Part shown: positions 1,925-35,104 of the stretch, piece by piece
Numbering within the stretch: position 1 is the first letter of the stretch
How the letters are laid out: each line of letters opens with the position of its first letter
Assembly (NCBI GenBank): GCA_024641505.1
Contig: JAHECY010000040.1
Span: forward strand, 1 to 35,104
Source of the DNA: Gammaproteobacteria bacterium
Lineage (GTDB): Bacteria; Pseudomonadota; Gammaproteobacteria; SG8-11
Reading direction: 5' to 3'
Length of the DNA: 35,104 nucleotides
Notes under the pieces: model-generated
Seen by the model: only the letters and a program-made list of their open reading frames with translations
Told to the model about the DNA's origin: nothing
Databases searched by the model: none
Position numbers and translations under genes: made by a program

Positions 1925-3781
1925 TCAGATTCCTTCGCGGGAGTCTTTTACCACCTTGAGCATGGCGTGGAAAACCTTTTTTGCTTTTAAATTGCGCAAC
2001 CCTGGCGATTGCTTGCCCAGTTTTGTAAAGTATTCCGGCTGCAATATCTGGTGTTCAATGAAATTATTGAATACGCGTTGCATTTCGCCCGCGCCATATT
2101 CACGATAGATGCGTATCATTTTCAGCGTGACTTGAATAATGGCATCGCCAGTGACCCGTTCGTAACGATTGATAAGATTGCTGCGTTCGCTCAATTGCTC
2201 CAACACGGCAGGTTCGCTGTCGCCGGTGATCCGTGCGGTCGCGTTCACCAACGCGCGGTAGGCACGCTGGAACCGGCGAATCGATTGCCGGCGATAGGGA
2301 TGCAGCCGCAAATCATGCGCTTGAGCGTAATCTGATTTCAGGATTTCAATGAAGCTCGGGTAATCCACCATGTCGGTACCCTGTAAATACAACACGGGCA
2401 GTTCCCGCAGAATGTCCCGCATGCAGAACAGTGCGTCACTGGTGATGCCGTCCGTCACTTCATACACTCCCGCGCTGGCTTGGCACCGTTCAAAATAAGT
2501 ATATGCCTTCTGCAGTACCTGCAGTTGTGCAGCCACATCCGGGTTTGTTTGTAGTGCTGTTATCCGATCCCAGGCGTAACCAATGCGATACAGGAGAAAT
2601 TGCGCGCGGCTCTCCTGGTAAATGCGCTCAAATTCCCGAAGGCTGGCATGACCGCGAAAATGATGAATATTGCGTTTCTTTCCACAATCAAGAAAATCGA
2701 CTAGTTGGGCGAAGGTTTGCACGATATAGCGCGCCTTTTTTTTCTGCTCCAGCAACGTGGTGGACATGCGGTCCACGTCGTTATAACGATACTGACGATG
2801 GAACAGGCCGAACTGACGGACGGAGCCATAGTCGATGACGCCGGCGTCCATCAGAATATTGTCACCATCCCAATCCATCCAGCAGAATACATACTCGCTT
2901 TCGTAAAGTGCGCTAGTGCGCGCGAAATCAGCGGTTACCTGATGCAATAAATGATGATGGTAGGCGCGCGGATTCAAGCCGGCAGGCCATATGCCATTGT
3001 CGATCTGGCGCTGGCAATAATAATTGATGATTTGGCGCAGTCCGGACAAGTCGCCCTGTTTGAGATAGCGGAAGATGTGCGCCGGACGCAGTAGATTGCC
3101 GGCGGCCCGCACATTGATACTGGTGCCGTCGCGAAATCCGATAATTGCCAAGGTGCGCTCCGTGGGGATGCCATTGCGGAAAAATATTTCACTGTTGAGC
3201 GCCGCACCCAAACCTTCCTTGAGATCGGCACGACCGCAACCGTAAGATACCGCTTTGTCTCCGGTCTTGAAGAAGCGCCCTTCAATCGCTGTCGCGGGAC
3301 TAAGTGCCGTTGCGCCCGTGCCGCAACTTGATATATCCCACGAGCCATCGGGTCCTTGAAAACAGCCGTTCCAGATGCTGCGCCCGTCACCGGAGGTGCG
3401 ACCAGTCCGGTCCGGATGTTGGAGTTGCAGGTAACGCGTGGCCATGTATTTGTTTGGCCGAATATCCTCTTTCGGGATCCGAGTGTTATATTGGATGTCA
3501 TACTCGTTGATGATGACCAGACTGAAAGTACCCAGGATGGTATCGGCGAGCGTTTTAGTGAGGACCGCCTCGTGATCCTTGGGAATCAGTCCCATGGCGC
3601 GTGCCAGGTTGAAATTGAAATAACACACCGTCCCGCCATGCCGGGTGCGCACATGATAATCAGTGAAACCGTCCGGCACGGCGATCTTAAACGGATGCTC
3701 ACCGTTGATCTCCGCAAACCGGCTGTACCGTACCCGGCGGCTTTCACGGTGATTCGTTGTGGATAAAGTGATATTGCCCAT
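1925..3781 (-). CDS. Divergent SelO/YdiU-like pseudokinase (putative protein AMPylase)
   Basis: A 618-residue protein that by eye resembles the SelO/YdiU family, whose characterised members transfer AMP from ATP to proteins. Family-like stretches are GDGRSIWNG (about 131-139, compare GDGR in SelO), a block at 170-212 containing GCGRADLKEG and LNSEIFFRNGIPTERTLAII (compare the SelO run ending SEAM..LGIPTTRAL), and a metal-binding-like loop GDNILMDAGVIDYG (306-319, compare TDNMSILGLTIDYG). The segment that normally reads LKGAG..PYSR reads SSCGTGATALSP here, so the usual lysine is not apparent. The roughly 300 C-terminal residues look helical and match nothing I recognise. Start ATG at 3781 follows a weak AGGA. 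It is divergent from the gene at 3908. Family membership is inferred from motifs; activity is unproven. Confidence 0.7.
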   Translation of the reverse strand: MGNITLSTTNHRESRRVRYSRFAEINGEHPFKIAVPDGFTDYHVRTRHGGTVCYFNFNLARAMGLIPKDHEAVLTKTLADTILGTFSLVIINEYDIQYNTRIPKEDIRPNKYMATRYLQLQHPDRTGRTSGDGRSIWNGCFQGPDGSWDISSCGTGATALSPATAIEGRFFKTGDKAVSYGCGRADLKEGLGAALNSEIFFRNGIPTERTLAIIGFRDGTSINVRAAGNLLRPAHIFRYLKQGDLSGLRQIINYYCQRQIDNGIWPAGLNPRAYHHHLLHQVTADFARTSALYESEYVFCWMDWDGDNILMDAGVIDYGSVRQFGLFHRQYRYNDVDRMSTTLLEQKKKARYIVQTFAQLVDFLDCGKKRNIHHFRGHASLREFERIYQESRAQFLLYRIGYAWDRITALQTNPDVAAQLQVLQKAYTYFERCQASAGVYEVTDGITSDALFCMRDILRELPVLYLQGTDMVDYPSFIEILKSDYAQAHDLRLHPYRRQSIRRFQRAYRALVNATARITGDSEPAVLEQLSERSNLINRYERVTGDAIIQVTLKMIRIYREYGAGEMQRVFNNFIEHQILQPEYFTKLGKQSPGLRNLKAKKVFHAMLKVVKDSREGI

Positions 3782-10566: not shown

Positions 10567-13053
10567 TTATTTTTTTAACTGCGCCAGGCATTTGTGCAGC
10601 GCTTCCGCCATTTCGGAGCCACTGACGTAGCGTTTATCAGCTTCTTTCTGCAGTGACTTGGCAATGAGGCGACTGATGCAGGGGTTTAGGTTCTTGCGCA
10701 GGCTGGCGGCGCTTGGTGCCTTATTATTGGTGATCTTGTACATGAGATTGGCCAGGGAATCGCCGGCAAAGGGCAACTGCCCGGTCACCAGCTGAAACAT
10801 CGTCACGCCCAGAGAATAGAGATCCGAGCGGCCGTCCAGTTTCTTGCCGGCGACTTGCTCCGGCGACATATAAGAGGGACTGCCGAGGATCAGGCCGGTT
10901 TTAGTTTTACTGTCGTCGGTCAGAAAGGCAATGCCGAAATCGGTTACTTTCACCGACTCCGTGTCGGGATCGTAGATAATGTTGCTGGGTTTGATGTCGC
11001 GGTGTACCACATTGCGTTCATGGGCGTAATCCAGTGCCTGCGCGACGTCAATGGCGATGGTTACCACCGTGCGCAGGGGCAGTAATGCATCATCCCGGGC
11101 ATAGGTGTCCAGGCTGCTGCCGGGCGCGTAGTCCATGGCGATATACGCCAGGTCGTGTTCCTCGCCGGCATCGTAAATGGTAATGATGTTGGGATGGTCC
11201 AGACGTCCCGCCGCTTCCGCTTCCCGAAAGAAGCGCTGCCGTACCTCGTGCAATTCCTCCGCGTCAAACTCCTCCATCAACGACAGGGTCTTGATCGCGA
11301 CCTGACGGCCGATCTTGGGATCAATTCCCAGGTAGACAACACCCATGGCGCCTTGCCCGAGTTCACGTTCAATGCGATAACGGCCCAGCATGGGTTTTTC
11401 CATGGTCTGGCTGTTGGCTACCATGGTGCCGATGACAGTGGCCGCGGCATTGGCGCGTTTACCGGCCACCGTCGGGGGTACCGCCGCGAGATTCTCCATG
11501 CGTGCGGCAATGTCGCGGTAACCGGTGTCGATGGCCGAGATTTTTTCATAAACCTGTATGGCCTTAGCGAAAAAACGGCGCCGCTCCATATCCAAGGCCA
11601 GTTGATACAAAGGTTCACGAAGTTCCGGTCCGATCGGACATTTGGTCAATTCATACAAAGCTTGATCCAGTTGTCCCTGGGTTTGCAGGGTACGCGCCAA
11701 TGCACCCCGGGCATCAATCACTTCCGAAGTAAGCCCGCGCATGCGCTCACGGATTCGTGCATGGCCATAGAGCATCGCCTGTGTTGCCAGGAAAAACGTC
11801 AGTGGCAATCCCAATGGTAACCACGTGTTATGCACGATCAATACTATGACCCAAATATTGATGCCAATGATCAGCAAGACAAGTTGCAGCAACAGCATCA
11901 AGCGCATGCTGCAGCGCGTCACCAGAATATAGAGCACGGCCGCGCATAACACCAACAGCAAACGTTGCGCCAGATAGAACCAGCTCGGCATTTGAATCTG
12001 CAGGTCGCTGGTTAGACTCAACAAGACATCGGTAAGCGGCACGGCGTCCAATGCCATGTTCCAGTGGGGAAGCGATCGAGTAAACTGCGCGTTGCCGTCC
12101 ACTGCGATTATCACCAGCTTGTCCTTGATCACGGATGCCGTTTTTACACCGTTCAGATAATGCGCCAAAGACCATTGGCTGGGTTGCTCGGATTGGACTT
12201 TTAACCGGGGATAAGGGATATATAAATATTCCGGCCCGGTGTGCAGCACCGCCTTGCCAACGGTTATGGTGTTGAGTCCCGACAGGGCTACCTCCGGCAG
12301 CGCAATACCTTTGAACTGTGCCAGTGCATTGAGCGCGAAACCCGGTAACAGTTTGTTGCCATCGGCATACAGAAGTTGAGTGCCGGTGTGGATAAACGCG
12401 CGATTGTCGAATCCCAATGCCTTGCTTGCCGCCAGGAACAAACTGTTCGGTAACGCTGCGGTACGCGGTTTAGCGTCCATGGTGTTAAAAAGCAGGTTGT
12501 TGGCCACGGACATAATACCTGGGGCATATGCCGGATTTTCCAGATAGTAGAAGCTGGGCAAAATGGTTTTGTCTGGCACCTCAGTTTCAAGAGTCAGGGG
12601 CGCAAACAGAATGACATTGCCAGCTTTCTCGATGGCATTTTTCAATGCTTGATCGGGATCCATTTTATTGACCCAACGTTGCAGTTCCGGCTGTAATTTT
12701 TGGGGAAACTCCCCAACCGCGGACCTGAATGCGGTGATGTCAGTAAGGGTCTGGACGTAATTCAGCGGCATCGCGAGAGCAATGGTGCGCGCTCCGTCAC
12801 GTCGCAGTTTTATCAATAGTTGCGCCAGCAGTTGATTGGAAAACAGTTCGTTACCGTAGTGGCTGTAGGAGTCGTCATCGTAAACGATGGTTATCACCGG
12901 GGATCGGTCGACCACCCGCTCCGGCAATAATGGCGCCATCAGCTGATAGGTGGTGGTTTCCAGGGTTTGCCAGGAGAGCGTGTAACTCGCGCTCAGGAAC
13001 GTCAGCAAAAATGCCAGGATCAGGTAAGGGCGCAATGTTATCCTGTTAGCCAC
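10567..13053 (-). CDS. CHASE2-domain Ser/Thr protein kinase
   Basis: An 828-residue membrane kinase. Residues about 8-26 form a first membrane helix, about 30-350 an extracytoplasmic CHASE2 sensor, and about 358-430 hold three further membrane helices, as in other CHASE2 proteins. A helical TPR-like linker (450-525) leads to a C-terminal Hanks-type kinase (about 559-815). All key residues are present: glycine loop GQGAMGVVYLG (567-576), Lys588 in VAIK, Glu611 or Glu613 in the FREAEAAG helix, HRDIKPSN (684-691) and DFGIA (705-709), then GSPSYMSPEQ. It should be an active kinase signalling from the periplasm to cytoplasmic Ser/Thr targets. The FHA gene follows in the same operon. The envelope/ABC operon begins about 1.1 kb away on the other strand. 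Confidence 0.95.
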   Translation of the reverse strand: MANRITLRPYLILAFLLTFLSASYTLSWQTLETTTYQLMAPLLPERVVDRSPVITIVYDDDSYSHYGNELFSNQLLAQLLIKLRRDGARTIALAMPLNYVQTLTDITAFRSAVGEFPQKLQPELQRWVNKMDPDQALKNAIEKAGNVILFAPLTLETEVPDKTILPSFYYLENPAYAPGIMSVANNLLFNTMDAKPRTAALPNSLFLAASKALGFDNRAFIHTGTQLLYADGNKLLPGFALNALAQFKGIALPEVALSGLNTITVGKAVLHTGPEYLYIPYPRLKVQSEQPSQWSLAHYLNGVKTASVIKDKLVIIAVDGNAQFTRSLPHWNMALDAVPLTDVLLSLTSDLQIQMPSWFYLAQRLLLVLCAAVLYILVTRCSMRLMLLLQLVLLIIGINIWVIVLIVHNTWLPLGLPLTFFLATQAMLYGHARIRERMRGLTSEVIDARGALARTLQTQGQLDQALYELTKCPIGPELREPLYQLALDMERRRFFAKAIQVYEKISAIDTGYRDIAARMENLAAVPPTVAGKRANAAATVIGTMVANSQTMEKPMLGRYRIERELGQGAMGVVYLGIDPKIGRQVAIKTLSLMEEFDAEELHEVRQRFFREAEAAGRLDHPNIITIYDAGEEHDLAYIAMDYAPGSSLDTYARDDALLPLRTVVTIAIDVAQALDYAHERNVVHRDIKPSNIIYDPDTESVKVTDFGIAFLTDDSKTKTGLILGSPSYMSPEQVAGKKLDGRSDLYSLGVTMFQLVTGQLPFAGDSLANLMYKITNNKAPSAASLRKNLNPCISRLIAKSLQKEADKRYVSGSEMAEALHKCLAQLKK

Positions 13054-20202: not shown

Positions 20203-21816
20203 ATGAGGCTGATTAAAATAACGATACTGTTTCTGATTCCTGTGTGCATGGGACTGATTACGAGCGCGCATGCGACGTCCAGCAATGATGGTCGTCCGGT
20301 CGGCGGCATGCTGAACTACGGTGAATACGGTCGCCCGGCGACCATAGATCCTATAACCAGCAACGATATGATCGCGCTGCGCATTTCGGAGCTTCTGTTC
20401 AATGGCTTGGTGGGAATCAATGCCAAGCAGGAAATCGTGCCGGAGTTGGCGCAAAAATGGGATGTGTCACCGGATGGCAGTGTCTACACGTTTTATTTGC
20501 GACCGGATGTGAAGTGGCATCCCCGTCCCGGCGAGGAAGCCAAACCGTTTACCGCAAATGATGTGGTGTTTACTTACAACATCATGATGCATCCGAAGAC
20601 CGTGACATCTCTAAAAGTGCGCTATGAATTCATTCAGGAAGCAAAGAAGATCGATGAACATACCGTGCAGTTCATCCTCAAGCGCCCGATACTCAACGCG
20701 TTGGCGAAATTCACTTTCAAGATAATTCCCGAATTTGGTCCGCAAAACAGCCTGTATCTGCGCCGTGATGATCCGTTCGTGCGCAACCCTGTCGGTACCG
20801 GTCCCTACCGCTTGGTGGAAACAACTGCCAATGGCGAAGTGGTAATGGAGGCCAATCAGAGTTATTTCATGGGTCGTCCGCACATCGACAAATTCGTGGC
20901 CAAGCCGTTTGCCGACCAGAACATCATGAATCAGGCATTGATGTTCAACTCCATCGATATGACGGTATTGGTAAATCCACGTGATATCCCGGAACTGCAA
21001 GGCGACAAACGCTATGTACTGCAACCCTATAACGCCTTGTCCTATGCTTTTTTCGGCTATAACACGCGTAACCCTCTGCTGGTCGACAAGCGCGTGCGTA
21101 AGGCATTTACCCTGGCGATCAACCGCGAAGAAATGCTTGATTCCTTTTTTAATTCGCGTGGCACGGTAATCTCGGGACCGTTCGCCCCAGGTAGTTGGGC
21201 TTACAATTTGGACGTGAGGCCCGACCCTTATGATACTGATAGAGCACGGGCGTTATTACAGGAAGCCGGATTCAGTCAGGGAGATGATGGCATTATGGTC
21301 AAGGACGGCAAACGGTTAAGTCTCTCTCTCAAGGTACCGATTGCCAAGGAAAGCGAGGCCACTAAGCGTGTGGTTTTAGCGTTCAAGAACTATCTGAAGA
21401 AAGTCGGTGCGGAAGTCAATGTTGAATTCATGGAGTGGCAAGCCTGGAAGGAAGCGGTATTTCAAAATCATGAATTCGACATCATGTTCGCTTCCTGGGT
21501 GTTCGATGACTCCGCAGATATTTCATCTCTGTTTCATTCCGCGGAAATTGGCCCGTGGAAGAACAACTTCGGCGCCTACTCGAATCCGGAAATCGATGGT
21601 CTGATTGCGGAAGCCAAACTGAGTCTTGATCATGAGAAGAAACGTACTATCTACCGGAAATTGCATGCCATGCTGTCTGAGGAAAGCCCTTATACATTCC
21701 TCTGGACCTTGACAAACTACGCCGGTTACAACAAAAAGATCCGGCACGTCAATATACACCCCTACAAGTTTTTCACTTTCGCCGATAGCTGGTATATTCC
21801 AGAGGGCAAACAATGA
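20203..21816 (+). CDS. ABC transporter substrate-binding protein, family 5 (peptide/nickel type)
   Basis: A 537-residue periplasmic binding protein with a signal peptide cut after SAHA (about residue 24). It shows the family-5 signatures: a start like PATIDPITSNDMIALRISEL, LAQKWDVSPDGSVYTFYLRPDVKWH, FTANDVVFTYN, and RKAFTLAINREEM with the following segment to about residue 330. Members bind di-/oligopeptides, nickel or related ligands; the substrate here is not predictable. It lies 32 bases after the TPR gene and is followed by a strong hairpin before the permease genes, a common way of giving the binding protein a higher level than the membrane parts. Confidence 0.94.
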   Translation: MRLIKITILFLIPVCMGLITSAHATSSNDGRPVGGMLNYGEYGRPATIDPITSNDMIALRISELLFNGLVGINAKQEIVPELAQKWDVSPDGSVYTFYLRPDVKWHPRPGEEAKPFTANDVVFTYNIMMHPKTVTSLKVRYEFIQEAKKIDEHTVQFILKRPILNALAKFTFKIIPEFGPQNSLYLRRDDPFVRNPVGTGPYRLVETTANGEVVMEANQSYFMGRPHIDKFVAKPFADQNIMNQALMFNSIDMTVLVNPRDIPELQGDKRYVLQPYNALSYAFFGYNTRNPLLVDKRVRKAFTLAINREEMLDSFFNSRGTVISGPFAPGSWAYNLDVRPDPYDTDRARALLQEAGFSQGDDGIMVKDGKRLSLSLKVPIAKESEATKRVVLAFKNYLKKVGAEVNVEFMEWQAWKEAVFQNHEFDIMFASWVFDDSADISSLFHSAEIGPWKNNFGAYSNPEIDGLIAEAKLSLDHEKKRTIYRKLHAMLSEESPYTFLWTLTNYAGYNKKIRHVNIHPYKFFTFADSWYIPEGKQ

Positions 21817-21832
21817 TAACCTAACCGGGCAA

Positions 21833-21861
21833 AACCGGTGCACCTGCCGGGTGCACCGGTT
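21833..21861 (+). terminator. Intercistronic hairpin / partial terminator after the binding-protein gene
   Basis: An 11-bp perfect stem (AACCGGTGCAC, 21833-21843, against GTGCACCGGTT, 21851-21861) with a 7-base loop, followed by a weak U-rich stretch (GTTATTCT). It lies 17 bases after the binding-protein stop and ahead of the first permease. It probably attenuates read-through or protects the upstream mRNA from 3' exonucleases. Confidence 0.7.
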
Positions 21862-21884: not shown

Positions 21885-22853
21885 TTGGCGCAATTCGATA
21901 AATATAAACCCGTCATTCTGGTGATTTCCCGGGAATTGCTCCTTACTGCGCTATTGTTGCTAGGTATCAGTATGGTCGTGTTTGCCATATTGTATCTGGC
22001 GCCAGGTGATCCGTTCGCCGTGTTGCTGGGCGGCCAACTGGTCTCGGAATCAGAACGACAGGCATTATTGGAGTCATTGGGACTGCCTTCAACCTGGTAT
22101 GGACAGTATTTCTCCTGGTTGGGCCATATGCTACAGGGGGATTTTGGCAATTCACTGCGCAGCGGGGTGCCCGTGGCCCAGGAATTGGTATCGACGGGGC
22201 TTAATACCCTGTACCTGATTGTCGGCGCCATGCTCGTGACCCTGGGGTTCGCGGTACCGATCGCCATCTATAGCGTCTCCCGGGAACACAGTTTGGCCAC
22301 CTGGTTGATGACCATACTTACCTATATAGTTTCCGCGCTGCCATTGTTCTGGCTTGGTTATATTTTGATCTACTATTTTACCCGTCAGTTGGGGATTTTC
22401 CCCGTGTCCACCAGCTCCGGCAGCGGGGAATCCCTGAACTGGCTGCATCTGGTGTTGCCGGTGCTGTTGCTGGGCATTGGTAATGGTGCGGTGGGGGAAA
22501 TCTTGCGGCACCTGCGCATGGAGTTGCAGCGTGTCATGGACGAGGAATACGTGCGCACGGCACGCGCAAAGGGAGCGCCTGTGTGGCGACATGCGTTCGC
22601 CGAAGGCCTGCTGTTGCCGATAACGGAGATGGTGGCCGCCAAATTGCCTCATTTGTTGGGCGGCGCGATCATTGTCGAACAAGTATTCAACTGGCCGGGT
22701 CTGGGACGCCTTGCCTGGCAAGCGGCATTGGATCGGGATTACCCGGTCATTCTCGCGGTGGCCGTGGTGGCGGCGGCGATGGTGCGCATGGGCAGTTTGT
22801 TGCACAGGTTTGTCTATATTTCAGTCAATCCCCGGGCTTCTCAGGAACATTAG
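21885..22853 (+). CDS. Peptide-type ABC transporter permease (DppB/OppB-like)
   Basis: A 322-residue inner-membrane permease with several hydrophobic helices. Family marks are LYLAPGDPFAVLLGG near the N terminus, the long loop with YGQYFSWLGHMLQGDFGNSL, and the EAA-type cytoplasmic motif around EEYVRTARAKGAPVWRHAFA that docks on the ATPase. The C-terminal part has HLLGGAIIVEQVFNWPGLG. The start is TTG at 21885 with AAGGA 7 bases upstream; no earlier ATG fits. It forms the transmembrane channel together with the next gene, which starts 13 bases after its stop. Confidence 0.93.
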   Translation: MAQFDKYKPVILVISRELLLTALLLLGISMVVFAILYLAPGDPFAVLLGGQLVSESERQALLESLGLPSTWYGQYFSWLGHMLQGDFGNSLRSGVPVAQELVSTGLNTLYLIVGAMLVTLGFAVPIAIYSVSREHSLATWLMTILTYIVSALPLFWLGYILIYYFTRQLGIFPVSTSSGSGESLNWLHLVLPVLLLGIGNGAVGEILRHLRMELQRVMDEEYVRTARAKGAPVWRHAFAEGLLLPITEMVAAKLPHLLGGAIIVEQVFNWPGLGRLAWQAALDRDYPVILAVAVVAAAMVRMGSLLHRFVYISVNPRASQEH

Positions 22854-29519: not shown

Positions 29520-32500
29520 ATGTACAAGCGCCGCATACATTCAAAGGCATCGGTACGTCTTGGCGTGATGCCACCGTTGACCGGGCTTGTTGCATTGTAT
29601 GGATCGGAAATTACGCGAGCCGCAAAAATAGCGTGTGATGAGGTAAATGAGAACGGTGGTGTATTGGGCCGTCCGCTGGAGCTCATTATAGAAGATGATG
29701 GCAGTATGCCAGAATTAGCCGTGCCAGCAGCGGAGCGGCTCATCGTTGAATATGGCTGCGTCGCGCTAATAGGTAATTTGCTGTCAAATTCACGCATAGT
29801 CGTGGCGGATCATGTTTCGCTTCCACGAAGGGTGCCATATCTCAACTTTTCGTTTTATGAAGGTAGCATATTTAATCGCTATTTCTTCAATTTTTCAGCG
29901 CTGCCTAATCAACAGATTGACAAAATGATTCCCTATATGGTCAGCCATTTCGGGCCGAAAATGTTTTTTGCCGGCAATAACTACGAATGGCCGCGCGGCT
30001 CTATTGACGCTGCGAAACGCTGTTTGCTGGCACACCACGGCGAAGTCGTGGGGGAAGAATATTTTCCAATTGGCAGTAAGGATTACGCTGAATTAATGCA
30101 AAAGATCGCACTATCCGGTGCCGATGTGTTTGTACCCTACGCTGCCGGCGCGGACCAGATCAACCTGCTGAATCAATTCACCGCCGCTGGTTTAAAGCAA
30201 CGCATGGCCGTGGTCATGGGTCACTATGACGAAGCGATGGTCTCGAATCTTGCGCCTGATGTGCGGGAGGGACTTTATTCCAGTAACACTTATTTTCTCA
30301 ATATCCAAAGTAAAGCCAATCAAGAATATTTGCAGCGGCTGGCCAGGGTGGACGGTGTAAGTGGCATCTGGCCGTTAGGTAATGGCGTAACTACGAATTT
30401 TGGAGAAGGCGCTTACGTATGCGTTCATGCCTTGGCGAAAGCCGGAAACATGGCCGGCTCTCTGGAGGCGGAAAAACTGGTTGAAGCTTTGGAGATGGTC
30501 AAGGTGTCCGCGCCGCAGGGTGAGGTAATAATGGACCCTGTAACCCATCATGCGAGCGTGAATTCCTACCTGGCGAAGTGCGAAAGCAACGGCAGTTTTA
30601 CAATTGTAGAGAAATTTGGATTGATAAATCCTCAAATACCCGAACGCTATCAGCATTCACAACGGCACTCTTTCACGCAAAACCAGCAAGCAGAGACGAA
30701 CACATGCGACGATTGGAAAATACTGTCGATTGTTTCGTTTCCGTTGCCCGGTGCGCGTTCCGCATTGAGTCCCATGGATAGCAAACTGTTCAATATCGGG
30801 GTGGACCCGAAATGCAGCGACGCACTATTCATTAAACTGAAGGAATGCAGCGATGATATTCTAAGATTGAACTGTTCCGGAAGCGATTATGAATTAGAGG
30901 TAAAGCCGGGAGTGGACCAGAATACCAAGGAAAGATTGCTGCTCACGCCTATCGGGTATGGCGGTAAAACGCAATATTTGCTGGTGCGTGGACGGGAAGG
31001 AAGCAGTTTTAGAGGATTCCAGGGAAGTCAGAAAACGGCAGCTGTTAACGCAATAAGCGCGGTGAATGCGTCGCTAGGCGGTAATGAAGGTACCCTCGAC
31101 CATATTCTGGGTGCAACCGATGTCGGGATCGTTGCGGTGGATGAAGCCGGAAAAATTATCAAGGTAAATCGTAAACTATGTGAATTGTTTGGTTTTGCCA
31201 TAGCCGAAATTCAGGGTAAGTCCGTGCACCTTCTGTTACCACCGCATTTGCGAAGCAAGCATGAAAAACACGTTCGAAACTTTGTTGGAGAATCCGTGTT
31301 ACAGCCGCGGATGGCTGGTAATTCGGAAATATCCTGCTATCGAAAAGATGGCAGCTTTTTTCCCGCTGAAACAAGTCTCAGCAAATTCAAGACGGATGCG
31401 GGATGGATTTCAGTCGCCACATTGGCGGATATTTCTCAGCGGAAAAAATTTGAGGAAGATCTGGTCTGGCAAGCGACTCATGATATGCTCACTCAGTTGC
31501 CAAATCGGGTGTTAATCAAAGATCGCCTGGAGAACGCTTTGATGCGTTCCATCCGCGGACGAAATACCGTGGCCCTGATGTTTATTGATGTCGACGAGTT
31601 CAAACTGGTCAATGATAGTTACGGACATGATACCGGCGATCGATTGCTGAAAATCATAGCGGATGAATTGGCAACTCTGATCAGACCTGGCGATACGGTA
31701 GGGCGGTTTGGCGGTGATGAATTTGTGGTGATTTGCGAGCAAATCAACGATGCGCATGCGGTAACGGTGATAGCCGAGCGTATCGTAGACACGATGAGAA
31801 GGCCGATCAGTATCGATGATATCGAGGTATTCGTGTCGGTGAGCATCGGTATCGCAATTGGTTATGGCGCCGTTGACTCAGCGGACGAAATGCTGGGGAA
31901 CGCCGACGCGGCGATGTATAATGCCAAGGCGAGAGGTCGTGATGGCTGGATAGTTTTCAGTGATTCGATGGCGGAGAATTCCAAGAGATTTCTGAAGATC
32001 GCAAATGGATTGCGTGGCGCCATTAAAAATAGTGAATTCTACACGGTGATTCAACCGATTCTCAGTGTAAAAACGGGAAAAATAGTCAGTGGCGAGATCT
32101 TGCTGAGGTGGCGTAGCCAGGATGCCGATATATCACCGGCAGAATTTATTCCTGTGGCGGAGATGACTGGCTCGATTCTGGAAATTGGTAGATGGGTTTT
32201 CGATCAAGCCTGTGGAGTGTTGGGAGCATTGAGGAAAATGTTGCCGGATCAAATGCTTCCACATATTTCCGTCAATGTATCGGCGCGCCAGTTGAGCGAT
32301 GATAGCGTGGTGGATTTTCTACTGAATACCGTGCAGAAACATCGCATTTCCCCGACAAATTTGTCAGTTGAAGTAACTGAAACTGCGCTGATAAGTGATA
32401 TCGAAAAAACAGTAAGTGCGCTGAATAGTATTGGCCGTGCGGGTTTTCTGGTTGCGGTGGATGATTTCGGAACCGGTTATTCTTCGTTAAGCATGCTGAA

Positions 32501-32780
32501 GAAGTTACCGGTGGATACCCTCAAGGTCGACAAGATTTTCGTTGATGATATCGCTCAAAGTGAAGATGCGTATTCCATTGCGTCAGCAATCGTCAGTATG
32601 GCTCATTCATTGGGTTTGAGTGTAACGGCGGAAGGCGTCGAAACAAAACAACAATTAGAGGTGTTGACCGTGCTGGGTTGCGATAACGTTCAAGGGTATT
32701 ATTTTTATCGACCCTTGCCCGTGGAAGAATTTGTGTTGCTTTGTTTGTCGCAAAGTCCTGATGCCAAGATGGTATCGTAA
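29520..32780 (+). CDS. Cytosolic ligand-binding (AmiC-like)-PAS-GGDEF-EAL protein
   Basis: A 1086-residue c-di-GMP enzyme. Residues about 10-370 form a periplasmic-binding-protein type-1 fold (VRLGVMPPLTG...VNENGGVLGRPLELIIEDDGS) close to the amide/urea/branched-chain amino-acid group, yet there is no signal peptide or membrane helix, so it should sense a ligand in the cytosol as AmiC does. A linker domain of unknown type (about 380-500) and a PAS domain (about 525-640) follow. GGDEF is intact (731-735), with an RPGD inhibitory site exactly five residues before it (722-725). The EAL domain reads EIL (859-861) but keeps VNVSARQ, DDFGTGYSS (981-989), LKVDK and AEGVE, so both activities are possible. 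No Shine-Dalgarno is seen before ATG 29520. Composition is A+T-rich relative to the window. Confidence 0.93.
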   Translation: MYKRRIHSKASVRLGVMPPLTGLVALYGSEITRAAKIACDEVNENGGVLGRPLELIIEDDGSMPELAVPAAERLIVEYGCVALIGNLLSNSRIVVADHVSLPRRVPYLNFSFYEGSIFNRYFFNFSALPNQQIDKMIPYMVSHFGPKMFFAGNNYEWPRGSIDAAKRCLLAHHGEVVGEEYFPIGSKDYAELMQKIALSGADVFVPYAAGADQINLLNQFTAAGLKQRMAVVMGHYDEAMVSNLAPDVREGLYSSNTYFLNIQSKANQEYLQRLARVDGVSGIWPLGNGVTTNFGEGAYVCVHALAKAGNMAGSLEAEKLVEALEMVKVSAPQGEVIMDPVTHHASVNSYLAKCESNGSFTIVEKFGLINPQIPERYQHSQRHSFTQNQQAETNTCDDWKILSIVSFPLPGARSALSPMDSKLFNIGVDPKCSDALFIKLKECSDDILRLNCSGSDYELEVKPGVDQNTKERLLLTPIGYGGKTQYLLVRGREGSSFRGFQGSQKTAAVNAISAVNASLGGNEGTLDHILGATDVGIVAVDEAGKIIKVNRKLCELFGFAIAEIQGKSVHLLLPPHLRSKHEKHVRNFVGESVLQPRMAGNSEISCYRKDGSFFPAETSLSKFKTDAGWISVATLADISQRKKFEEDLVWQATHDMLTQLPNRVLIKDRLENALMRSIRGRNTVALMFIDVDEFKLVNDSYGHDTGDRLLKIIADELATLIRPGDTVGRFGGDEFVVICEQINDAHAVTVIAERIVDTMRRPISIDDIEVFVSVSIGIAIGYGAVDSADEMLGNADAAMYNAKARGRDGWIVFSDSMAENSKRFLKIANGLRGAIKNSEFYTVIQPILSVKTGKIVSGEILLRWRSQDADISPAEFIPVAEMTGSILEIGRWVFDQACGVLGALRKMLPDQMLPHISVNVSARQLSDDSVVDFLLNTVQKHRISPTNLSVEVTETALISDIEKTVSALNSIGRAGFLVAVDDFGTGYSSLSMLKKLPVDTLKVDKIFVDDIAQSEDAYSIASAIVSMAHSLGLSVTAEGVETKQQLEVLTVLGCDNVQGYYFYRPLPVEEFVLLCLSQSPDAKMVS

Positions 32781-33021
32781 TCCGTTGTCAACGGGCGATC
32801 GCAGTATCGAGATAATCCCGACTAATTAGCGAATCGTTGTTGCCTTGGACACCGCAGGTTTTGAGTGTCCGTAGGGCGGTTGATATGTGATGTTATGGCG
32901 GAATCATGGTGATTGACACTAATAGCAGCACACTGAGAAACATAAAAAAACCGCGACGGTGCGCCATCGGACCGCAGGGCTGCGATTGATCAGGGGCACG
33001 AATTCGGTTTTCGCCAAGGCG
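32781..33021. other. Intergenic stretch between the GGDEF-EAL gene and the small membrane peptide gene
   Basis: No gene seen. A weak hairpin GGACAC/GTGTCC (32847-32852 and 32865-32870) with a 12-base loop lies about 65 bases after the GGDEF-EAL stop but lacks a U-run. The convincing element is the minus-strand terminator at 32944-32970. Confidence 0.45.
32944..32970 (-). terminator. Intrinsic terminator, minus strand
   Basis: Read on the minus strand: a GC-rich stem CGATGG/CCGTCG (32964-32969 and 32954-32959) with a CGCA loop, then CGG and a run of seven T (32950-32944). This is a good rho-independent terminator. It lies about 50 bases past the stop of the 45-aa membrane peptide gene and indicates a real minus-strand transcript there. 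Confidence 0.68.
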
Positions 33022-33159
33022 CTATTCGGGTGTTACAGATCGTAGATGAATTCGGACAAGCACATGCATTGATGATGCGATAGATATGCAGTGATTGAAA
33101 AAGTAGAGTACTACCAGGATGCCGTAAAATGACAACAGGTTTAACTTTAATTCCGACAT
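33022..33159 (-). CDS. Small membrane peptide (45 aa)
   Basis: A 45-residue peptide starting MSELKLNLLSFYG with one hydrophobic stretch (about 7-35, rich in Leu, Val, Phe, Ile) and a basic C-terminal tail, so probably a single-pass inner-membrane peptide. No family recognised. Support comes from context: GAGGG lies 6 bases before ATG 33159, and an intrinsic terminator follows the stop by about 50 bases on the same strand. A longer in-frame start at 33225 has no ribosome-binding site. It stands alone between the GGDEF-EAL gene and the nirB control region, and is transcribed away from nirB. Confidence 0.45.
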   Translation of the reverse strand: MSELKLNLLSFYGILVVLYFFNHCISIASSMHVLVRIHLRSVTPE

Positions 33160-33569
33160 TTCACACCCTCTTATCATAATCGATGTTATTGGACAGCCGC
33201 GCAACAAATTCACTATTTGTGCCACAGCGTTAACGTGTTGCTCATCGGGCAGATGTCACAGGAGTCGGCGTTTTCGGTGCGCCTGAGTTGCACTTTGCTT
33301 GTGCGTGCGATTTTGAAAATGATGCACTGCCGCGGGCGCTTGCGCCGGCAATGATCGTTGTGCAAACGCTGTGCGTACCAGGTGAATCATCAATGGCGGA
33401 CAGGCCCAGCGTGCTCGGTTTATCCTCGGTCGTCGATGCTCTCGTGATGCGATACCAGGCTCATCAAGTAAAAATTAAATAGCTGTCGACCGAGTTTGAT
33501 GTTCGTTGGACGCCAATCGGCGTTATCACGGCATCAGGATTTACAGTGCGTATTTTGTTTCAGACGCGA

Positions 33570-33586
33570 TGCGCCATAATCAAGCA
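33570..33586 (+). promoter_or_regulatory. Weak second NtrC-like dyad
   Basis: Matches roughly 9 of 13 defined positions of the NtrC dyad TGCACYA-N3-TRGTGCA and lies 73 bases upstream of the better site, close to seven helical turns. Its score alone would not be convincing. Confidence 0.25.
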
Positions 33587-33642
33587 GACACTCATGTGCT
33601 ACCCGGTGTTTCAGCCTCATAAGGAGGCACGACCTGTGGCAA

Positions 33643-33659
33643 TGCACCACCATGATGCG
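33643..33659 (+). promoter_or_regulatory. NtrC-binding-site-like dyad (enhancer)
   Basis: TGCACCACCATGATGCG matches the NtrC consensus TGCACYA-N3-TRGTGCA with two mismatches in the right half. Its centre is about 132 bases upstream of the transcription start predicted from the sigma54 promoter, a usual enhancer distance. Confidence 0.55.
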
Positions 33660-33726
33660 CAACACCTGCGGCCGAGACTTTAGGCTAACTGATTTCCCGA
33701 AACAATAATCGATAAAAAATAAGTAG

Positions 33727-33739
33727 TTACGTGTTGATT
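33727..33739 (-). promoter_or_regulatory. IHF-binding-site-like element
   Basis: On the minus strand AATCAA-CACG-TAA matches the IHF consensus WATCAA-N4-TTR except for one base, with an A-rich stretch (33711-33722) beside it. It sits between the NtrC-like dyad and the sigma54 promoter, where a DNA bend is normally needed. Confidence 0.45.
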
Positions 33740-33756
33740 TTGAAGTAATCTAAAGC

Positions 33757-33772
33757 TGGCACAGCTATTGCG
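33757..33772 (+). promoter_or_regulatory. Sigma54 (-24/-12) promoter of nirB
   Basis: TGGCAC-N5-TTGC is a full match to the sigma54 core consensus, with GG and GC correctly spaced. The predicted start is near 33783, about 23 bases before the nirB ATG. It makes nirB transcription depend on RpoN and an activator, most likely NtrC under nitrogen limitation. Confidence 0.85.
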
Positions 33773-33805
33773 ATAGGGCAACCTGAGTTCTCTAAGAGGT
33801 GCAGC

Positions 33806-35104
33806 ATGAAAGAAAAATTGGTGGTTGTGGGTAACGGTATGGCCGGCATACGTACGGTAGAGGAGTTGCGCACAATTGATGCAGACGCATACGATATCAC
33901 CGTATTTGGGGCGGAGCCTTACGGTAACTACAATCGAATTTTACTGTCACCGGTATTGGCCGGTGACAAAACCATCAACGATATCATGCTCAATACGGAA
34001 CAGTGGTATCACGATAATGGTATAACGCTGCACCAGGGGAATGTAGTGGTCGGAATCGACCGGCACAGACGTTTGGTGCTGGCGGACGATGGTACCACCG
34101 AACCTTACGACCGGCTGCTGTTGGCAACGGGTTCCAATCCATTCATCATTCCGGTGCCGGGCAATGACCTGTCCGGTGTCATCAGTTTTCGCGATATCCG
34201 CGACGTCTACACCATGCTGGACGCTGCGCGTAGCTACCGGCATGCGGTGGTGATCGGCGGTGGCTTGCTGGGTCTGGAAGCGGCGAACGGCCTGCTGCAA
34301 CAAGGTATGGATGTGTCAGTGGTACACCTTACGAATACCCTCATGGAGCGTCAACTCGATAGCGTTGCCGCCGGTATGCTGCGCAAGTCGCTGGAAGAAA
34401 GAGGCTTGAAGTTTCTTATGGCCACCAGTACCGAGGCCATCCTGGGTACTGATCGAGTGTGTGGTGTGCGCTTTAAAGATGGTCTGGAGATACCGGCGGA
34501 TCTGGTGGTGATGGCGGTAGGTATTCGGCCCAATATGGCCTTGGCGCAGCAGTGCGGCCTGTACTGCGAACGAGGCATTGTCGTCAACGACACCATGCAA
34601 ACCTATGATCCTCGAATTTACGCGGTAGGTGAATGCGTGCAGCACCGAGGTGATACCTACGGTCTGGTGGCGCCGTTGTTCGAACAGGCCAAGGTGTGTG
34701 CCAATCATCTGGCGAAGCTGGGATATGCCCGCTATCGGGGATCGGTAACCTCGACCAAGTTGAAAGTCACGGGTATCGACTTGTTTTCTGCCGGTGATTT
34801 CATCGGTGATGAAAGTACTGAAGATATTGTCATGATGGATGCCAAGCGCGGCGTTTATAAAAAGGTGGTGGTCAAGGACAACCGGATACAGGGTGCTGTC
34901 ATGTACGGCGATACGGTGGACGGCGCCTGGTATTTTCAGCTTCTGCGTGACGCTACCGATGTCAGCGATTTTCGCGGCCAACTGATGCTGGGACAGGCGC
35001 ACTTGGGCAATGCCGGCCATGGCGGCAGCAATGCAGCGGCAGCGATGAGCGATGAAATGGAAGTGTGCGGTTGCAATGGCGTGTGCAAGGGCGCGATCAA
35101 GAAA
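33806..35104 (+). CDS. nirB: Nitrite reductase [NAD(P)H] large subunit NirB (3' part outside window)
   Basis: The first 433 codons of a flavoprotein that opens the nitrite reductase large subunit, which reduces nitrite to ammonium using NAD(P)H, FAD, an Fe-S cluster and siroheme. Visible are the FAD-binding VVVGNGMAGIRTVEEL (6-21), EPYGNYNRILLSPVLAG (37-53), LLLATGSNPF, the NAD-binding HAVVIGGGLLGLEAA (146-160), AVGECVQHRGDTYGLVAP (273-290), and the start of a BFD-like [2Fe-2S] domain with Cys421, Cys423 and Cys427 in CGCNGVCKG. The siroheme part lies beyond the window. AGAGGTG sits 4 bases before ATG 33806. The sigma54 promoter directly upstream points to the assimilatory role. A related NAD(P)H-dependent FAD oxidoreductase with a BFD domain cannot be fully excluded without the C terminus. 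Confidence 0.88.
   Translation, partial: MKEKLVVVGNGMAGIRTVEELRTIDADAYDITVFGAEPYGNYNRILLSPVLAGDKTINDIMLNTEQWYHDNGITLHQGNVVVGIDRHRRLVLADDGTTEPYDRLLLATGSNPFIIPVPGNDLSGVISFRDIRDVYTMLDAARSYRHAVVIGGGLLGLEAANGLLQQGMDVSVVHLTNTLMERQLDSVAAGMLRKSLEERGLKFLMATSTEAILGTDRVCGVRFKDGLEIPADLVVMAVGIRPNMALAQQCGLYCERGIVVNDTMQTYDPRIYAVGECVQHRGDTYGLVAPLFEQAKVCANHLAKLGYARYRGSVTSTKLKVTGIDLFSAGDFIGDESTEDIVMMDAKRGVYKKVVVKDNRIQGAVMYGDTVDGAWYFQLLRDATDVSDFRGQLMLGQAHLGNAGHGGSNAAAAMSDEMEVCGCNGVCKGAIKK

Follow-up and report, generated by a model that had tools for sequence, protein, structure and literature searches.

The nirB gene that closes this stretch of DNA is preceded by a short region (33570-33805) in which the initial annotation had recognized a complete NtrC-IHF-sigma-54 control module. 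The question raised by the locus is whether nitrite assimilation is placed there under nitrogen-limitation control. The window, i.e., the whole 35,104-nt stretch that was analyzed, is the entire contig C83 of a 4.78-Mb genome (G000) assembled in 222 contigs. Its end truncates the nirB frame: positions 1-431 of the TIGR02374 profile were matched at the end of C83 and positions 437-788 at the end of C140, with scores of 502.6 and 430 bits, respectively (whole-protein cut-off, 578.35 bits), and the two halves are probably one gene. On C140, the C-terminal half of NirB is followed by a NirD that exceeds its cut-off, and the contig also encodes a molybdopterin oxidoreductase of the nitrate reductase/formate dehydrogenase kind (NasA-like) plus a DmsB-like protein. 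From the evidence given below, it is very likely that nirB belongs to an assimilatory nitrite/nitrate reductase operon of the nirB-nirD-nasA type, transcribed from a sigma-54 promoter under an NtrC enhancer.

Sites upstream of nirB

The features of the region are listed in Table 1. The -24/-12 core, TGGCACAGCTATTGC (33757-33771), is the only exact TGGCAC-N5-TTGC within the window, in agreement with the perfect match first described, and its GG and GC doublets lie 10 bp apart. The sigma-54, NtrC and IHF matrices used for scoring are approximate. On the first of these (maximum, 19.7), the score of the promoter was reached by 0.03-0.2% of random 200-bp sequences. The base following TTGC is G, where A or T is usual. 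Nine exact cores were found genome-wide (4.78 Mb) vs. 10 for a reversed-pattern control, so the core by itself does not stand out at the scale of the genome. The predicted leader, from a start at about 33783 to the nirB ATG, would be 23 nt long. A simple scan of 33181-33805 found no sigma-70-like site; over 32700-33900, two sigma-70-like promoters and two terminators were counted, which is near chance (shuffle means of 1.5 and 1.2, respectively).

Table 1. Features at the nirB end of the window; centers are relative to the predicted transcription start.
Feature	Sequence	Position	Strand	Remarks
Possible distal NtrC-like dyad	TGCACTTTGCTTGTGCG	33289..33305	+	center -486; score 14.4
Weak second dyad of the initial annotation	TGCGCCATAATCAAGCA	33570..33586	+	score 6.0; chance level
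NtrC-like dyad	TGCACCACCATGATGCG	33643..33659	+	two mismatches; center -132; score 14.0
IHF-like site	AATCAACACGTAA	33727..33739	-	12/13; center -50
Sigma-54 -24/-12 promoter	TGGCACAGCTATTGCG	33757..33772	+	sole exact core of the window; score 15.2
Predicted transcription start		33783	+	from the -24 GG by promoter geometry
Likely ribosome-binding site	AAGAGG	33794..33799	+	read from sequence
nirB, N-terminal 433 residues		33806..35104	+	frame truncated by contig end

The principal NtrC-like element has the form of a TGCAC-N7-GTGCA-like dyad and lies within about -90 to -170, at the position and with the two mismatches originally claimed for it. Its score (maximum, 21.5) was reached in 0.7% of random 400-bp sequences and in 0.1% of random 80-bp sequences. 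The weaker second dyad proposed as an additional site was rejected, as an equally good one turned up in 33% of random 400-bp sequences. A dyad farther upstream, second best of the window and stronger than this second dyad of the initial annotation, which overlooked it, is a possible distal site; dyads scoring at least 13 occur in 3% of random 1025-bp regions.

The IHF-like site is present as described (score 9.1; maximum, 14.9), but its motif alone is at chance, with 34 matches of at most one mismatch in the window vs. 27.8 expected. The site appears to be supported instead by its position, by the A+T-rich stretch that holds it (25% G+C across 33701-33756) and by enrichment among relatives. 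The match at nirB has the minority orientation among relatives (6 of 38).

Trans-acting genes and related promoters in the same genome

The genome encodes the proteins on which such a promoter would depend. A search for ntrC and rpoN, proposed as a check on the reading, found both: rpoN as one match (233.8 bits; cut-off, 22.8) and a full-length NtrC (750 bits; cut-off, 558.6). IhfA and IhfB are encoded as well, both over their cut-offs. Frames for glnA and ntrB lie upstream of ntrC, with ntrB adjoining it, as read by position and sequence only.

Similar arrangements precede other genes of nitrogen metabolism in this genome. What we take to be a GlnB/GlnK-type PII gene carries a sister module whose sigma-54 match scores 15.5 and whose dyad, at -131, scores 18.6; its IHF match scores 9.1. 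Upstream of glnA, the module is weaker, with a sigma-54 score of 10.5 and two close dyads of 15.4 and 14.2. Dyads also precede ntrB (sigma-54 score, 9.6) and a gene that is presumably ammonium-transporter-like (sigma-54 score, 10.7). The genome's own glnA and glnK-type promoters thus resemble that of nirB in having a sigma-54 match and NtrC dyads at about -98 to -131, whereas glnA differs from nirB in its weaker sigma-54 match and paired dyads.

Conservation and spacing among nirB upstream regions

Orthologous upstream regions were taken from two sources. In a search of 94 relatives, 45 gave a match at E≤1e-60, and 30 loci, the window included, were obtained; 80 named loci were added. Nine of the 110 upstream regions were dropped because they were >80% identical over the last 200 bp, and 101 distinct regions remained. 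The relatives compared are mostly labelled Gammaproteobacteria. A sigma-54 match of at least 10 bits occurred within 250 bp in 78 of the 100 distinct nirB upstream regions other than that of the window, i.e., in 27 of 29 loci from the genomes of searched relatives and 51 of 71 named loci. In controls, the rate was 4.6% for random sequences; distal regions reached the threshold in 7 of 94 cases, and reverse strands in 3 of 98. Conservation in relatives, on which the original reading had been staked, was therefore found, and for the dyads as well, which cluster as described below. Among the 79 matching loci (window included), the predicted leader had a median length of 47 nt and was under 100 nt in 75. 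In a genome of the same genus (G001), the sigma-54 match scored 17.7, with an IHF match of 13.9 at -48 and a dyad of 12.1 at -108. As the module is conserved in many distant relatives, it can be taken as genuine and is of use in annotation.

In the window, nirB is preceded by a gene (29520-32780, + strand) that encodes a UrtA-like ligand-binding domain joined to PAS, GGDEF and EAL domains, without an obvious signal peptide. This gene is absent upstream of nirB in the close relatives G001, G002 and G004, where other genes are found, and it was dropped as a candidate member of the module. As the upstream gene differs in these three genomes, the module appears to be kept while its neighbors change.

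Twenty-two of the 101 upstream regions had no sigma-54 match of at least 10. Ten proteins encoded upstream of these nirB genes were examined: six were nitrate ABC transporter ATPases, two were AmtB, one was NasA-like and one had no match at 1e-60. By these identities, nine of the 10 nirB genes examined that have no such match follow another nitrogen-assimilation gene.

The spacing of the sites was analyzed in the 76 of 101 loci (window included) that had at least 400 bp of upstream sequence and a sigma-54 score of at least 10. These contained 100 NtrC dyads scoring at least 10, vs. 3.55 expected, and 56 of the 76 loci carried such a dyad between -165 and -85. Dyad positions clustered from -108 to -133, peaking at about -109, -120 and -131, and the interval from -124 to -127 was empty. 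Between about -320 and -161, 29 dyads were found vs. about two expected, so distal extra NtrC sites are common in this family of nirB promoters. IHF matches of at least 8 were present in 38 of the 76 loci (5.9 expected; distal control, 10 of 74), at positions of about -40, -50 and -60.

Outside the main -120 peak, the phase of the dyads agreed with that peak at a period of 10.5 bp (n = 28, p = 2e-5), and the agreement held when the analysis was restricted to genomes of searched relatives, nearly all of different families (n = 9, p = 0.004). Against a smoothed null, p was <0.001 for both sets. These tests do not fully correct for relatedness among the loci. IHF and NtrC positions were not correlated with each other (r about 0.1, n = 28 and n = 23). 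The phasing is accordingly seen for each site separately, and the two sites do not move together.

Antitermination and other layers of control

In some nirB systems a second layer acts on the leader RNA. At the nirB gene of the window, the predicted leader is too short to hold a terminator, and no ANTAR protein was found in G000, an assembly of 222 contigs in which absence is not proof. The same ANTAR search gave matches in 26 of 94 relatives and in none of 14 control genomes. Because the leader is too short for NasT antitermination and the search for ANTAR proteins in G000 was negative, control may rest on nitrogen status alone. We infer that nitrate-responsive antitermination of the NasR/NasT type is absent here and that the operon senses nitrogen status and not nitrate.

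In the searched relatives, the only two loci without the promoter (G052 and G059) lie directly downstream of a nitrate-transporter ATPase gene, and an ANTAR gene lies 4.4 and 3.6 kb upstream of nirB, respectively. No ANTAR gene occurred within 30 kb on the same contig at any of the 27 promoter-bearing loci of searched relatives, several of whose contigs are short. Unlike the promoter-bearing orthologs, NirB-like genes in five genomes (G019, contig C32; G040, C109; G049, C24; G056, C128; G085, C17) have an ANTAR (NasT-type) gene no more than about 2.1 kb away; these NirB-like genes are only 35-39% identical to that of the window.

An Rfam scan of 32500-34200 gave no match up to E = 5. FNR boxes with at most three mismatches numbered 18 in L002 vs. 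12.2 expected; within 33570-33805, none had fewer than three mismatches, all of those there having three.

Proposed mechanism and alternative explanations

What the sequence shows directly is the set of sites with their spacing and conservation, together with the trans-acting genes and the sister modules elsewhere in the genome. Phosphorylation, binding, looping and the start site at nirB are predicted. Under nitrogen limitation, phosphorylated NtrC would bind the dyad at -132, perhaps aided by the distal dyad at -486, and IHF would bend the A+T-rich stretch around -50. The NtrC oligomer, brought to the promoter by looping, would then spend ATP to open the closed complex of RNA polymerase and sigma-54 at -24/-12, and transcription would begin near 33783, giving a 23-nt leader ahead of the nirB ATG. 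The conservation, the trans-acting genes and the sister modules all support the nitrogen-limitation control initially proposed for nirB, which stands as a prediction.

Some of the evidence would also suit a chance assembly of weak motifs, with nirB transcribed from another promoter: the IHF motif and the rejected second dyad are at chance when taken singly, and exact sigma-54 cores are no commoner in the genome than the control pattern. However, all three elements are conserved at fixed spacing in distant relatives and the simple scan offered no sigma-70-like promoter in their place, which makes chance assembly extremely improbable. If the sigma-54 promoter is real, its main activator might still be an enhancer-binding protein other than NtrC. 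The genome has several candidates, since TIGR01818 was matched at nine places with E below 1e-50 (NtrC included) over most of the profile or its central part. Only one of these proteins exceeds the NtrC cut-off, however, and the dyad both fits the NtrC consensus and recurs before the PII-type gene, glnA, ntrB and the nirB genes of relatives. A different main activator is accordingly very unlikely, if somewhat less so than chance assembly.

A less distant alternative is that control by NtrC is joined by a second layer (NasT-type antitermination, FNR or NarL) that adds a response to nitrate or oxygen. Such layers have been reported for the nirB operons of Pseudomonas and Escherichia coli (PMC12830290), and a gene for one could be missed in an assembly of 222 contigs. 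The short predicted leader, the lack of an ANTAR match in G000, the lack of an FNR-like site with fewer than three mismatches and the empty Rfam scan argue against it, and we consider a second layer unlikely. NtrC acting through sigma-54 is the reading that we prefer.

A broader reading of the comparative data can be put forward tentatively, as possible rather than probable. Gammaproteobacterial families may keep the NtrC and IHF sites of nirB on one face of the helix, with shifts by whole turns (-109/-120/-131 and -40/-50/-60, respectively); the lineage of the window may lack nitrate-sensing antitermination and respond to nitrogen status alone; and orthologs located behind nitrate-transporter genes may lack the sigma-54 promoter, with a NasT-type gene close by.

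Relation to known systems

The nirB promoter is a further case of a well-known kind of control. The closest parallel is nirBD of Pseudomonas, where a sigma-54 promoter activated by phosphorylated NtrC likewise precedes an assimilatory nitrite reductase operon, and where expression is reported to need NtrC/sigma-54 plus NasT acting on a leader RNA, nalA (PMC12830290). The leader RNA and NasT add nitrate control in that system, in contrast to the nirB gene of the window with its short predicted leader and no ANTAR protein found. The nasB gene of Pseudomonas stutzeri is described as an NtrC-dependent nitrite reductase gene with a sigma-54 promoter (PMC8443478), and Burkholderia cenocepacia has nitrite reductase genes that are reported to depend on NtrC (PMC5491218). 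The NtrC regulon is described in a comparative study as taking in nitrate/nitrite assimilation genes in alpha- and betaproteobacteria (PMC5343134); the extension to nitrite reductase is shared with the window, whose relatives are mostly labelled Gammaproteobacteria. In Pseudomonas putida, nirB and nirD were reported to rise under nitrogen limitation by 13- to 17-fold in the wild type and by 5- to 7-fold in an rpoN mutant, and their regulator is listed in that report as not determined (PMC7801951). As the rise occurs in the rpoN mutant too, sigma-54 need not be the sole route.

Spacing of an activator site by about 11 bp relative to a sigma-54 promoter has a precedent in the enhancers of Vibrio qrr genes, 61 natural examples of which had loop lengths that cluster about 11 bp apart (PMC4740811). 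The activator there is LuxO and the genes are others, whereas the activator at nirB would be NtrC. The phasing of about 11 bp across families appears to be a modest addition to what is known of this kind of promoter. No published description of the nirB promoter in these lineages was recognized in the open-licence literature. The analysis provides a confident prediction that assimilatory nitrite reductase is under nitrogen control in little-studied lineages, which are mostly represented by metagenomes only. In addition, the comparative set forms a natural series for gauging how strongly helical phasing constrains the placing of enhancers and IHF sites at sigma-54 promoters, and it allows nirB promoters with a nitrate-sensing antitermination layer to be told from those without.

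Other features of the window

Repeats in the intergenic region consisted of one two-copy, 19-nt family only. The top-scoring NtrC-like dyad of the window (18.4) lies at 21839-21855, where a short gap separates the frames 20203-21816 and 21885-22853, and could equally be a hairpin. On the - strand, the frame 10567-13053 encodes a CHASE2 sensor domain fused to a serine/threonine protein kinase, and the frame 1925-3781 encodes a 618-aa protein with weak similarity to SelO/YdiU proteins.
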